From positions 62,001 through 126,000 of the forward strand of contig JAFQBB010000032.1 in NCBI GenBank assembly GCA_017416805.1: a stretch of DNA of 64,000 nt, in the 5' to 3' direction. Within the stretch, counting starts at the first letter, position 1; each line of letters opens with the position of its first letter. The notes beneath the pieces are model-generated. The model was not told the DNA's origin. It saw nothing but the letters and a program-made list of their open reading frames with translations, and did no database searches. Shown one piece after another: positions 17,493-28,100 of the stretch. This DNA is from Bacteroidaceae bacterium. Lineage in GTDB: Bacteria; Bacteroidota; Bacteroidia; Bacteroidales; Bacteroidaceae. The position numbers and the translations under genes are program-made.

Positions 17493-17853
17493 GAAAGCAG
17501 TTGGACGGCTTGTCGCTGCCCCATTAGGGGGAGAGGAAAGTCCGGGCAACAAAGGGCATCCCACTTGTTAACGGCAAGCAATCCGCGAGGGTTGAGCAGT
17601 GGAGAAGAAAATAACCGCCCCTTTTTCGGAAGGTGGTAAGGGTGAGAAGGTGAGGTAAGAGCTCACCAGTCGTGTGGTGACACACGAGCTGTCTGCCTTG
17701 GGAGTTGTAAGGTCATGTAAACCGGCGTTTGAGGGTAGCCCGCCCAAGCCGGAGGGTAGACCGCTGGAGCCACATCGGTGACGGGTGGCGTAGATAAATG
17801 ACAAGCACCTCTTTCGGGAGGCACAGAACCCGGCTTATAGGCCGACTGCTTTC
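17493..17853 (+). ncRNA. rnpB: RNase P RNA, bacterial class A
   Basis: Catalytic RNA that removes 5' leaders of tRNA precursors. The 5' end GAAAGCAGTTGG pairs with the 3' end CCGACTGCTTTC to form P1. The universally conserved GAGGAAAGTCCGGGC block is at about 17532-17546 and the matching 3' block ACAGAACCCGGCTTAT at 17823-17838. Length is about 361 nt. A promoter sits directly upstream. The YihY gene begins 28 bp after the 3' end, so it may receive read-through. Confidence 0.95.
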
Positions 17854-23877: not shown

Positions 23878-24651
23878 TTATTTGATGTTTTCTCTGATTC
23901 TTGTCAAATAGTTCTTCATTCTTCCGGCATCTTTCTCGGAAATGATTTCCAGCAATTCTTTCAACTCCCGCCGTATGTTTTCCACTTGTCCGGGTGTGCG
24001 GGGATTGAAGAGAATCTCCTGTAGCAGGTAGTCATCCTCGTTCATCAGTCCGCGGGCTATGTCCATGTGGCGTTTGAAGGTCGTTCCCGGAGCATCCTGA
24101 TGTTTCATGACCGCAGAAAACACGAAGGTTGAAACGAATGGAATGGAGAGCGAATAAGCCACCGTTTCATCATGCTCATCAAACGTGTATTCGAAGATGT
24201 TCAGCTTCAGCGAACTGTAAAGGTCCTTGAAAAATATGCGCCCCATGTAATCACCTTCGGATATGATGATGGCATTCTCCTTGCCCAAATTGTCGAGATT
24301 GGCAAATGTCGGACCGAACATGGGGTGGGTCGAAACATAACGGAATCCGCTTGCCTCGTAGAAGTCTTTCAGTCCGGTCTTGACCGAAGCAATATCGCTC
24401 AGGATGCATGTCGGGGGCAGTATGGGCATGACTTGCCGGAAAGCCTCTAACGTATATTTTACCGTAGCGGCATTAATCACAAGCTCCGGGGCGAACTCCT
24501 TTATTTCGTCCAGAGAGGTGAAACGGTAAGTGTGATAAACGAACCGCAGGCGTGCCGGGTCAATGTCATATACGGCTGTTTCGTGCTGGAAACTCAGTAC
24601 ATCTGTCAGGAAGGAGCCCATTTTCCCGGCTCCAAGAATCAGAATCTTCAT
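23878..24651 (-). CDS. tyrA: Prephenate dehydrogenase
   Basis: Oxidises prephenate (or arogenate) on the way to tyrosine. The N-terminal Rossmann fold starts with ILGAGKMGSFL; the catalytic His lies in VSTHPMFGPTFANL (about residue 128). The helical C-terminal dimer domain completes 257 residues; there is no chorismate mutase or ACT fusion. It is the fourth biosynthetic gene of the operon, 88 bp after the DAHP synthase gene, and the gap contains a hairpin. Confidence 0.93.
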   Translation of the reverse strand: MKILILGAGKMGSFLTDVLSFQHETAVYDIDPARLRFVYHTYRFTSLDEIKEFAPELVINAATVKYTLEAFRQVMPILPPTCILSDIASVKTGLKDFYEASGFRYVSTHPMFGPTFANLDNLGKENAIIISEGDYMGRIFFKDLYSSLKLNIFEYTFDEHDETVAYSLSIPFVSTFVFSAVMKHQDAPGTTFKRHMDIARGLMNEDDYLLQEILFNPRTPGQVENIRRELKELLEIISEKDAGRMKNYLTRIRENIK

Positions 24652-24739: not shown

Positions 24740-25807
24740 TCATTTGTTGATTATTTCCATTTGCTGGCGCACACTCTCTTCATGGATGGCTTCAAACACC
24801 TTCTTGATGAAAGCTGCATCCATACCACACAGGGCACCTTGAGCCCCACGCTTGTCCAAGATTTCATTATAACGCCCTGTTTGCAAGATTGGCATATTGT
24901 GCTCCTTCTTGTAAGTACCGATTTCGCGGGCCACTCGCATACGTTTTGAAAGGACCTCGATCAGCGAGTTGTCACATTCGTCAATCTGTGAACGCAGTTC
25001 ATGGAGGTTCTCTGTCGTTTGTTTCTCCTTACGGATGACGAGCAGATTCAATATGTAGTCAAGAACGGCCGGGGTAACTTGTTGCGAGGCATCACTCCAT
25101 GCTTGGTCGGGGTTGCAATGACTTTCAATGATAAGTCCGTCGAATCCCAAGTCCATGGCCTGCTGGCAGAGGGGCGCAATGAGTTCACGCTTGCCACCGA
25201 TGTGGCTCGGGTCGCACAGGATGGGCAATGCGGGAATCCGGCGACGGAGTTCGATGGGGATATGCCATTGGGGCAGGTTGCGATAAATCTTTTTGTCGTA
25301 TGAAGAAAAACCACGATGGATGGCTCCCAACCGGCAAATGCCTGCCTGATTCAGACGCTCCATGGCTCCTATCCATAATTCAAGGTCAGGGTTTACCGGA
25401 TTCTTGACTAAAACAGGGATGTCCACTCCTTTCAGAGAGTCTGCTAATTCTTGCACGGCAAAAGGATTGGCCGACGTACGTGCACCAACCCACAACAGGT
25501 CTATACCGGCTTCAAGAGCAGCCTCCACGTGTTTGGCCGTAGCAACCTCTGTAGCGGTGTACATGCCGGTCTCTTCTTTCACGCGTTGTATCCAGCGAAG
25601 TCCTTCCACACCAATACCCTCAAAACCTCCGGGCTTGGTACGTGGTTTCCAGATTCCTGCACGGAATATCCTGGTACCCTTGGCTGCCAATTCATGGGCA
25701 GTGTTCATCACTTGTTCTTCAGTCTCGGCACTACAAGGTCCGGCAATGACCAAAGGGGCGTTAGGGTCAATGCCCGGAAGTGTGATAGGTTTTAAGTTCA
25801 GTTCCAT
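24740..25807 (-). CDS. DAHP synthase fused to chorismate mutase
   Basis: Bifunctional enzyme of 355 residues. The N-terminal domain (about 1-265) makes DAHP from PEP and erythrose 4-phosphate: VIAGPCSAETEEQV, FRAGIWKPRT, and CDPSHIGGKREL are type I-beta motifs. The C-terminal AroQ domain (about 270-350, LHELRSQIDECDNSLIEVLSKR) converts chorismate to prephenate. The fusion ties pathway entry to the branch point, and the operon supplies both outlets (pheA, tyrA). Confidence 0.94.
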   Translation of the reverse strand: MELNLKPITLPGIDPNAPLVIAGPCSAETEEQVMNTAHELAAKGTRIFRAGIWKPRTKPGGFEGIGVEGLRWIQRVKEETGMYTATEVATAKHVEAALEAGIDLLWVGARTSANPFAVQELADSLKGVDIPVLVKNPVNPDLELWIGAMERLNQAGICRLGAIHRGFSSYDKKIYRNLPQWHIPIELRRRIPALPILCDPSHIGGKRELIAPLCQQAMDLGFDGLIIESHCNPDQAWSDASQQVTPAVLDYILNLLVIRKEKQTTENLHELRSQIDECDNSLIEVLSKRMRVAREIGTYKKEHNMPILQTGRYNEILDKRGAQGALCGMDAAFIKKVFEAIHEESVRQQMEIINK

Positions 25808-25848: not shown

Positions 25849-27048
25849 TTAAAGTTGCTTTCCGGCCTGCATTTCTTTAATACGTTCCAACGCTTCTGCC
25901 AGTTTCTTTTTCTTTGCACATAGTGAGATGCGTATGTAGCGTGCACCATTCGAACCGAATATGAAACCGGGTGTGATAAAGACTCTTGCCTCGTGCAACA
26001 CCTGTTCAGTAAGTTGTTCTACATCGGTCAAATAGTCAGGAATACGTCCCCACAGGAACATACCTACCTGATTGGTGTCGTAAGAGCATCCCAACGTACG
26101 CATAATCTCTTCTGCCAAATCGCGGCGTTCACGATAAATGGTATAGTTGGCCTCATGATGCCACTCTTCGCTATTGTGATATGCTTCGGCTGCTGCCAAT
26201 TGGAGAGGCCGGAAGGTACCCGAATCAATATTGCTTTTTATTTTCAACACCCATTGTACAAACTGTGCATTGCTGGCCAACATACCGACACGCCATCCTG
26301 GCATGTTGTGGCTCTTGCTCATGGAGTTGAATTCGATACAGCATTCCTTGGCTCCGGGTATTTGTAAAATACTCAGAGGTTGTGTGTTAAGAATAAAACT
26401 GTACGGATTGTCGTTTACAATGACTATGTTCTTTCTGCGTGCGAAATCTACCAGTCGTTCGTATAACTCTTTTGTTGCATTAGCGCCGGTAGGCATATTC
26501 GGATAGTTGGTCCACATCAGTTTTACACGACTCAAATCCATGGCTTCCAGTGTGTCAAAATCTGGCATCCATCCTTTCTCTTCCAGCAGGTTATAGGTCA
26601 CGATGTCGCTTCCCAAGATGCGGTTAAGTGAAGTATAGGTCGGATATCCGGGATTTGGTACCAACACCTGGTCGCCAGGATTGACGAAGGCCAATGTGAC
26701 ATGCAGGATACCCTCTTTCGAGCCTATGAGCGGTTGGATTTCAGTATCCGGATTCAGCTCGACTCCATACCATTTGCCGTAAAAGTCGCTCATGGCTTTT
26801 CTCAGTTCCGGAATACCTACGGTGGGTTGGTAGCCATGTACGTCCGGGCGGCGTGCCTGCTCGCACAACACATTGATAGCTTCTTGGGAGGGTGGCATGT
26901 CAGGGCTTCCGATACCAAGGCTTATCACATCCTTTCCCTCGGCATTCATTTGTGCCACCTCTTTCAGTTTCCGGCTGAAATAATATTCACTCACATTGGC
27001 CAAGCGTCCTGCCGGCACAATATTATATACGTGATTTTCCTTCTTCAT
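25849..27048 (-). CDS. PLP-dependent aminotransferase (probably aromatic)
   Basis: Class I/II aminotransferase of 399 residues. SLGIGSPDMPPS, GYQPTVGIPELR, the NPGYPTY segment, and the PLP lysine in EFNSMSKSHNMPGWRVG (about residue 240) identify the fold. Its place between prephenate dehydratase and DAHP synthase points to the transamination of phenylpyruvate and hydroxyphenylpyruvate, but related enzymes act on aspartate or LL-diaminopimelate. It overlaps the 3' end of pheA by 26 bp. Confidence 0.88.
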   Translation of the reverse strand: MKKENHVYNIVPAGRLANVSEYYFSRKLKEVAQMNAEGKDVISLGIGSPDMPPSQEAINVLCEQARRPDVHGYQPTVGIPELRKAMSDFYGKWYGVELNPDTEIQPLIGSKEGILHVTLAFVNPGDQVLVPNPGYPTYTSLNRILGSDIVTYNLLEEKGWMPDFDTLEAMDLSRVKLMWTNYPNMPTGANATKELYERLVDFARRKNIVIVNDNPYSFILNTQPLSILQIPGAKECCIEFNSMSKSHNMPGWRVGMLASNAQFVQWVLKIKSNIDSGTFRPLQLAAAEAYHNSEEWHHEANYTIYRERRDLAEEIMRTLGCSYDTNQVGMFLWGRIPDYLTDVEQLTEQVLHEARVFITPGFIFGSNGARYIRISLCAKKKKLAEALERIKEMQAGKQL

Positions 27049-27865
27049 ATTCTCCTAACACTTTAAGTTCTTTAGTCAAGGGTGATACGGCGTCAATTGA
27101 TTGGCGGAAACGGAGATAGTCGTTGAAGATGACATCCACATAGAACAAATATTCCCATTCACGCCCAATGATGGGGAGAGATTGTATCTTGGTAAGGTTG
27201 ATTCTGTAAAATGAAAAGATGGAAAGCACTTGCGAAAGACTTCCTTCGTTATGTGGTAGAGAGAAGACTATATTTGCCTTGTTTGCGGCAGAACGTCGGC
27301 ATAACTCATCGGCTTTCCATGGGTCTGCAACCACCAGGAAACGGGTAAAATTGTGCTTGTTCGTTTCAATACCCTCTTCGAGCACCTTCATGTCATAGAG
27401 AGGAGCTGCAAACTTCGAACAAATGGCTGCATGTCCTTTCAGCTGCTTTTCACTGATGTTCTTGGCACTTCCCGCCGTATCATCCGTTTCCACAATCTTT
27501 AAATTGGGATGCTTCATCAGGAACTCCCGGCATTGTGCCAATGCTACGGGGTGAGAATTGACCTCTACCAAATCGTCCCAACTTTCACCGGGCAAACATA
27601 CCAGGCTATGGCTGATCCGCAGTTTGTGTTCACCAACAATGGTAGTGCCACTTTCGCGCAACAACTCATAATTGTGCAACAGGCTTCCGGCAATGGTGTT
27701 TTCGATCGCCGTCATGCCTATCACGTTGCTGTCTTGACGAATCTGTTCAAATACCTCCTCAAATGTGTTGCAACAAATGAGTTCTATATCCTCACCTTCG
27801 AAATATTGATGGGCCGCAATGTCGTGAAACGACCCGATCATTCCTTGTATCGCTACTTTTTTCAT
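27023..27865 (-). CDS. pheA: Prephenate dehydratase
   Basis: Converts prephenate to phenylpyruvate. The N-terminal domain (about 1-180) has AIQGMIGSFHDIAA, the TAIENTIAGS segment and the catalytic THR-like ETNKHNFTRFLVV; a C-terminal ACT domain follows (about 195-275). The usual Phe-binding motifs GALV and ESRP read GSLS and QSLP here, so feedback control may differ. It is the first structural gene of the operon, behind a Phe/Tyr leader peptide and terminator. Confidence 0.94.
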   Translation of the reverse strand: MKKVAIQGMIGSFHDIAAHQYFEGEDIELICCNTFEEVFEQIRQDSNVIGMTAIENTIAGSLLHNYELLRESGTTIVGEHKLRISHSLVCLPGESWDDLVEVNSHPVALAQCREFLMKHPNLKIVETDDTAGSAKNISEKQLKGHAAICSKFAAPLYDMKVLEEGIETNKHNFTRFLVVADPWKADELCRRSAANKANIVFSLPHNEGSLSQVLSIFSFYRINLTKIQSLPIIGREWEYLFYVDVIFNDYLRFRQSIDAVSPLTKELKVLGEYEEGKSRI

Positions 27866-27887: not shown

Positions 27888-27924
27888 AAAAATCCCGCAA
27901 ATCCGAATAAAGGAAAAGCGGGAT
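27888..27924 (-). terminator. Attenuator terminator before pheA
   Basis: On the minus strand ATCCCGC (27924-27918) pairs with GCGGGAT (27898-27892) and is followed by TTTTG, an intrinsic terminator 27 nt before the pheA ATG. The left arm with its flank (TCCCGCTTTTC) can instead pair with GAAGCGGGA (27984-27976) at the end of the leader peptide gene, forming an antiterminator. Confidence 0.8.
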
Positions 27925-27947
27925 GTCATATCAGTCTAATCTATTTT

Positions 27948-28043
27948 TCATTTTTGATAAGGTACATACACGACCTCCCGCTTCACTTCATTGCTAAAGT
28001 AAAAGTAAAAGAAGAAGTAAAAAAATGTATGTAATGCTTTCAT
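27948..28043 (-). CDS. Phe/Tyr-rich leader peptide of the aromatic operon
   Basis: A 31-codon open frame on the minus strand from ATG at 28043 to TGA at 27948. Residues 7-16 are FFYFFFYFYF, ten aromatic codons in a row; Tyr also occurs at 26 and 29. It lies between the promoter and the pheA terminator. Ribosome stalling on Phe or Tyr codons would free the GAAGCGGGA segment just downstream to pair with the terminator's left arm. This is the classic leader-peptide attenuation design. The reading was checked codon by codon. Confidence 0.88.
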   Translation of the reverse strand: MKALHTFFYFFFYFYFSNEVKREVVYVPYQK

Positions 28044-28071: not shown

Positions 28072-28100
28072 CAAAAGTACAACATAATTTTGATATACAA
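28072..28100 (-). promoter_or_regulatory. Promoter of the aromatic operon leader
   Basis: On the minus strand TACTTTTG (28072-28079) matches the -7 box; a TTG (28098-28100) lies 18 bp upstream, one base short of the usual spacing. Transcription would start near 28065, about 22 nt before the leader peptide ATG. Confidence 0.55.

Follow-up and report, generated by a model that had tools for sequence, protein, structure and literature searches.

A probable ribosome-mediated Phe/Tyr attenuator upstream of pheA in the Bacteroidaceae and related families

The aromatic operon and its leader

The window, a 64,000-nucleotide stretch of DNA from a Bacteroidaceae bacterium, carries on its minus strand pheA, encoding prephenate dehydratase (27023..27865; PF00800, 1.2e-54), followed by genes for a class I/II aminotransferase (25849..27048; PF00155), a DAHP synthase - chorismate mutase fusion (24740..25807; PF00793, PF01817) and prephenate dehydrogenase, tyrA (23878..24651; PF02153). 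Because the operon holds these four genes, its products should be Phe and Tyr, and the Pfam matches thus bear out the original prediction that it makes both. A pectinesterase ORF (PF01095; 22887-23876, minus strand) starts 1 nt past the stop codon of tyrA and could share a transcript with the aromatic operon, and a bacterial class A RNase P RNA was located with Rfam at 17497-17853 on the plus strand.

A leader peptide ORF of 31 codons plus a stop codon was called between a Bacteroidetes-type promoter motif and pheA (27948..28043, minus strand; MKALHTFFYFFFYFYFSNEVKREVVYVPYQK), its end lying 82 nt from pheA. As had been predicted, this frame contains ten consecutive aromatic codons, FFYFFFYFYF (codons 7-16; 27996..28025, minus strand), and this candidate sensing run is kept in relatives. 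The promoter motif comprises a putative -7 box, TACTTTTG (28072..28079, minus strand), and, 18 nt upstream of it, a TTG (28098..28100, minus strand) that would serve as the -33 element under what we take to be its consensus. The -7 box follows the consensus TAnnTTTG as it appears in the consulted part of PMC9723704, and this motif was found at most 80 nt upstream of the leader ATG at 116 of 141 loci, versus 4.7% of mononucleotide shuffles.

The terminator expected before pheA is also present on this strand, with region 3 (AUCCCGC; 27918..27924, from fold and alignment) as its left arm, region 4 (GCGGGAU; 27892..27898, from the alignment) as its right arm and a U run (27888..27892) of which position 27892 also takes part in the stem pairing; the pheA start codon is located 22 nt beyond the U run. 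Region 3 is common to the terminator and to an antiterminator, the left arm of which is region 2 (GUGAAGCGGGA, 27976..27986; the fold extends this arm to about 27968). The segment GAAGCGGGA (27984-27976) is able to pair with the terminator left arm, and this alternative pairing, likewise claimed beforehand, is contained in the minimum-energy fold (-48.2 kcal/mol, z -3.3, equalled by 0 of 200 shuffles). The best fold of the strand consists of the antiterminator and a hairpin over the last aromatic codons, referred to here as the 1:2 hairpin, whose 5' arm is region 1 (UUUACUUU, 27996..28003, overlapping the last aromatic codons, with 8 of 8 pairs formed in the window) and whose 3' arm is GAAGUGAA (27982..27989, from fold and alignment).

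We asked how often such an aromatic run would be met by chance. Among ATG-started ORFs of 12-50 amino acids, no second ORF with 7 of 10 F/Y residues was found in the window, and in 20000 Markov-1 sequences of intergenic composition, 88 reached 7/10 F/Y, 12 reached 8 and none reached 9. Seven consecutive aromatic codons occur at a single place in the genome assembly (3.16 Mb, 91% complete; four overlapping matches). The reversed aromatic pattern, used as a control, gave 8 matches in the same assembly, so that a U-rich run this long arising elsewhere by chance is not impossible. A chance U-rich tract as the origin of the leader was ruled out by the Markov-1 simulation together with a set of control windows, in which a leader plus terminator was called in 11 of 1998 cases. 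Conservation, described below, appears to be stronger evidence for the leader than these chance statistics.

Occurrence of leader and terminator before pheA

Within the Bacteroidaceae, we examined the best 80 of 565 related loci (titles such as Phocaeicola, Bacteroides, Prevotella and unnamed Bacteroidaceae). In 74 of these 80, a leader was called by the criterion of at least 6 F/Y residues in 12, and an F/Y-rich leader together with a terminator preceded pheA in 71. At L084 and L091 the run is visible by eye, but the locus is cut or mis-set, and at four others of the 80 (L086, L093, L094 and L102) no leader was found. Of 32 additional loci from the family and the order, 27 also had leader plus terminator; L116, scored as a miss, has a run by eye that would need a GTG start, and L146-L148, also scored as misses, carry only distant PheA matches. 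Outside the order, 28 of 29 loci had both elements (27 from the same class, 26 of them with a leader, and two from other classes, L179 and L184, both with one); these were the 29 best among 171 other genomes that gave a PheA match, and the sample therefore leans towards close relatives.

Twenty more loci were hand-picked to cover other families, one from the same class (L249) and 19 from other classes. No leader was found in 17 of these 19, the other two being L231 and L232, which brings the total for other classes to 4 of 21 loci. Within the class, no leader was found at either locus of the family represented by L205 and L249. L214 likewise yielded no leader. From these comparisons, the element looks characteristic of the class and absent from one of its families. 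The pheA products of L179, L184, L231 and L232 are 41-47% identical to that of the window (E 5e-74 to 9e-60) and are closer to it than most leaderless ones, with the exception of G444 (45%). This higher similarity hints that gene and leader were transferred together, and movement of pheA to other classes along with its leader is thus possible. A model, R1, was also built from alignment A3 (59 of the 67 sequences of alignment A1, described below). Its count of 202 of 295 order genomes (E <=1e-3) was rejected as a tally of attenuators, since many of the matches were weak, covered only a hairpin part or fell on both strands.

Two F/Y leaders in series, each with its own terminator, were found before pheA at 12 loci from eight families (L138, L145 (=L223), L180, L192, L208, L210, L212, L213, L217, L219, L220 and L221); the pheA of L217 contains internal stops. 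Most of L208-L223 had been picked for the tandem arrangement, and among loci not so picked its frequency was 2 of 18 at the order level and 2 of 29 outside the order. L065 and L215 were also flagged as tandem by script, but the extra ORFs of L215 share one terminator. The Salmonella mgtCBR attenuators described in the consulted part of PMC3641672 resemble these loci in having two short ORFs in series, although they control other genes, and the two leaders at each pheA locus have aromatic runs of the same type.

Covariation, spacing and codon content

Alignment A1 combined the window with 66 of the 80 Bacteroidaceae loci, leaving out the six that lack a called leader and eight judged near-identical by eye. 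For the terminator, 91.3% of cells in the 67 sequences were paired, falling to at most 54.9% when the partner strand was slid, and 6 of 10 pairs had changed on both sides. Its covariation score was reached by 0 of 500 shuffles and its number of two-sided changes by 18 of 500. For the antiterminator, 89.5% of cells in the same sequences were paired (at most 49.9% when slid) and two pairs had changed on both sides; two of five measures were not above the shuffles (306/500 and 278/500), because the core is nearly invariant. We attribute this invariance to the constraint that regions 2, 3 and 4 can only change jointly. Two registers of the 1:2 hairpin were seen: Bacteroides-like leaders use UUUACUUU/AAAGUGAA, and Prevotella-like leaders use CUUUGCAN/NUGUGAAG. 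In alignment A2, made of 21 leaders selected for fitting the Prevotella-like register, 96.4% of its cells were paired, two pairs had changed on both sides and the score was reached by 0 of 500 shuffles, while the count of two-sided changes (56/500) and one further measure (390/500) were not clearly above them. The expectation that aromatic run and stems would be conserved and covary upstream of pheA in relatives was borne out by these alignments.

Between families the stem sequence differs altogether, and regions 2, 3 and 4 shift in concert. We compared the region 2 - region 3 duplex of each of 30 families, represented by one locus of our own choosing with a called leader and terminator, to duplexes in which the partner was swapped between families. 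The native duplex ranked at a median 5th percentile (Wilcoxon p 1.1e-6) and beat every swap in 9 of 30 families; at L130, L136, L140 and L219 it was no better than many strangers (0.52, 0.59, 0.38 and 0.24). Compared to shuffled sequences, the duplex was better than at least 95% in 28 of the 30.

The position of region 2 is fixed with respect to the codons upstream of it. Its GCGG begins 13-16 nt past the last aromatic codon in every one of 75 leaders, a spacing that suits a ribosome halted on the aromatic run. The reading frame through this GCGG varies, being one frame in 48 leaders, another in 19 and the third in 1, while in 7 the GCGG follows the stop codon; thus, it is the RNA rather than the peptide that is conserved here, and conservation of the C-terminal part of the leader at the peptide level was ruled out by these frame changes. 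This result bears on the idea that the small ORF encodes a functional hydrophobic micropeptide and that the hairpin is only a boundary terminator. The leader peptide is indeed alike across many species of the family, as that idea would have it, but the stretch beyond the run is read in different frames, or is absent, although its RNA is retained, region 2 pairs with region 3, and the run is Phe-only in front of a stand-alone pheA, all of which make a micropeptide extremely improbable.

The codon content of the leaders was compared with the genes downstream. In G078, pheA lies apart and is preceded by the leader MTRFFTHFFFFFTQQ, and an operon of tyrA, aroF/CM and ORFs that by eye resemble aro genes carries MNNTFGYYAFYYYFFYNN. 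In G088 and G295, pheA also lies apart, behind a run of RFFFFFAFFF with two Tyr codons coming later, and the aminotransferase - aroF/CM operon (with tyrA seen next in G088) carries FAYFYYYFYF. Here, 'apart' means that the other three proteins were not matched within about 4-5 kb (G078, G088) or 1.5 kb (G295) downstream. In G201, the third genome of the G088/G295 genus, no leader was seen upstream of pheA, which lends the pattern no support. The stand-alone pheA leaders (L209, L215 and L216) have purely Phe runs, followed in L215 and L216 by two Tyr codons, and the separate tyrA/aroF leaders, from two families, are Tyr-rich. These observations suggest that leader codon content follows gene content, as judged from a small sample with two independent splits. 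A Trp codon was observed within the aromatic run at L138, L143, L144, L183 and L189; Trp codons in such distant leaders perhaps reflect a DAHP synthase that serves all three aromatic amino acids.

The codons could also be read as sensing one amino acid alone, with the other kind merely tolerated. Drift between the two would be easy, as TTY and TAY are one base apart; however, all 28 leaders outside the order hold both F and Y, and the runs become purely Phe before stand-alone pheA and Tyr-rich before split tyrA/aroF, so that we regard sensing of a single amino acid as unlikely. Mixed, Phe-only, Tyr-rich and tandem leaders instead form a natural series for the study of codon-specific sensing. 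A riboswitch, T-box or protein-bound attenuator, in which the RNA would sense a metabolite, tRNA or protein and translation would be incidental, was considered as well. The arrangement of regions 2, 3 and 4 would fit any attenuator, but the only Rfam match up to E 5 was to a microRNA (E 4.2, on the other strand), alignment A1 displayed no extra conserved domain by eye, and the codon run is conserved, with a composition that follows the gene content. We consider such a sensing RNA hardly credible. A known Rfam element was excluded by the finding that no Rfam 15 family scored above its gathering threshold at the pheA leader.

Proposed mechanism and relation to known systems

Very probably, then, the element is a ribosome-mediated transcription attenuator that senses how much charged tRNA-Phe and tRNA-Tyr is available. 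The dual-product operon, the conserved run and the covarying stems support the Phe/Tyr leader-peptide attenuator originally proposed, and sequence comparison backs the leader, run, terminator, alternative pairing, covariation, spacing and match of codons to genes. Promoter use, leader translation, stalling, termination and pausing are steps that we infer as follows. Transcription would start from the TAnnTTTG promoter and the leader would be translated at once. When Phe or Tyr is short, the ribosome would stall on the aromatic run with its leading edge just before region 2, allowing region 2 to pair with region 3, so that no terminator would form and the pheA operon would be transcribed. When both are plentiful, the ribosome would pass over region 2, region 3 would pair with region 4, and transcription would stop before pheA. 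The 1:2 hairpin, having the last aromatic codons as its 5' arm, probably makes RNA polymerase pause, so that it stays in step with the ribosome, and probably helps to sequester region 2.

We modeled the effect of ribosome position on the RNA before region 4 is made, at 142 of 158 loci with a called leader and terminator (a few being one gene fetched twice), assuming a footprint of 15 nt behind and 14 nt ahead of the first base of the P-site codon. When the ribosome occupied the last three aromatic codons, the median antiterminator probability was 0.98 and was at least 0.5 at 137 of 142 loci. With the ribosome at the stop codon, the median was 0.04, and the drop was at least 0.3 at 113 of 142; the zero value for a ribosome covering region 2 follows from the mask itself and provides no evidence. 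A ribosome placed at the stop codon of the window's leader leaves region 2 unblocked (antiterminator 0.86 before region 4, terminator 0.06 at equilibrium), and shut-off there must therefore fall while the ribosome is over region 2, or occur by other means. Without a ribosome, the antiterminator was favored (median 0.83 across the 142 loci), and the terminator of the window stood at 0.05 at equilibrium.

Full-length equilibrium folding of the window gave a terminator probability of 0.00 for a ribosome held at the run and 1.00 for one at most of the positions beyond. When the equilibrium occlusion model was applied to 30 species (L082 was left out, as it has no called terminator), a switch was seen in 5, and in most the terminator won in every state; hence, the model needs the antiterminator to form first. 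Altogether, one can tentatively picture an ancestral dual Phe/Tyr attenuator shared by the Bacteroidia, with ON as its default, in which the leader allows read-through as long as it is not translated and the operon is shut off only by a ribosome travelling over region 2, with switches in series sharpening the response in several families and with the cassette having moved with pheA into other classes. If this picture were correct, ribosome and RNA polymerase would be tightly coupled across the class. The leader offers a native reporter for the question of transcription/translation coupling in Bacteroidia.

Leader-peptide attenuators are known in Proteobacteria for pheA, trp and his. The element described here resembles them in its run of cognate codons, its 1:2, 2:3 and 3:4 helices and an intrinsic terminator before the first gene, and differs in lacking an Rfam match and in that two amino acids are apparently sensed together. 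Furthermore, folding predicts antitermination without translation at most of the present loci, which is the reverse of E. coli trp.

The original prediction held attenuation to be best known from Proteobacteria, with no Phe/Tyr attenuator described in Bacteroidales. This kind of regulation is in fact not unknown in Bacteroidota, as judged from RF01692 and the consulted part of PMC9723704, but the second part of the statement stood, in that no description of a Phe/Tyr attenuator in Bacteroidota was found in the open-licence literature among the matches listed. The consulted parts of PMC9723704 report strong hints of leader-peptide attenuation upstream of amino acid operons in Flavobacterium psychrophilum, and a structured element before pheA that is conserved in Flavobacteriaceae and lacks an Rfam hit; same-class loci in our sample also show leaders before pheA. 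For that element, the same parts mention neither a Phe/Tyr run nor an alternative structure, and they report neither covariation nor a wider distribution. In B. thetaiotaomicron, small ORFs that recall leader peptides are mentioned in the portion of PMC7366714 consulted.

Bacteroid-trp RNA, Rfam RF01692, is listed in a table of PMC2864571, in whose main text a term search for 'leader peptide', 'tryptophan' and 'attenuation' returned none of the three. It shares phylum and genome with the pheA leader, although the RF01692 covariance model matched the genome once, at the trp leader, and gave no match at the pheA leader. Given these precedents (Bacteroid-trp, PMC9723704 and PMC7366714, as far as the consulted parts go), the kind of regulation is not new; what is new is its widespread Phe/Tyr form before pheA. 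Going by the covariation, a large class of bacteria from the gut and the environment appears to use ribosome position as a permanent means of controlling aromatic amino acid synthesis through attenuation, something so far only hinted at for them in the literature found. A covariance model for Rfam and annotation of the small ORFs would follow directly.

Two further leaders were noted in the genome of the window. The Bacteroid-trp element lies about 370 bp to the left of the window (L115, G000:C63:61481-61628), with the leader MRTLSNTYWWWRRLQLQQS (YWWW) and an ORF after it that is trpB-like by eye. Finally, L250 (G000:C23:25888-25902) contains the leader MTQTFIHHHHHLPVD, after which come a hairpin and an ORF that is hisG-like by eye, and is likely a His attenuator.
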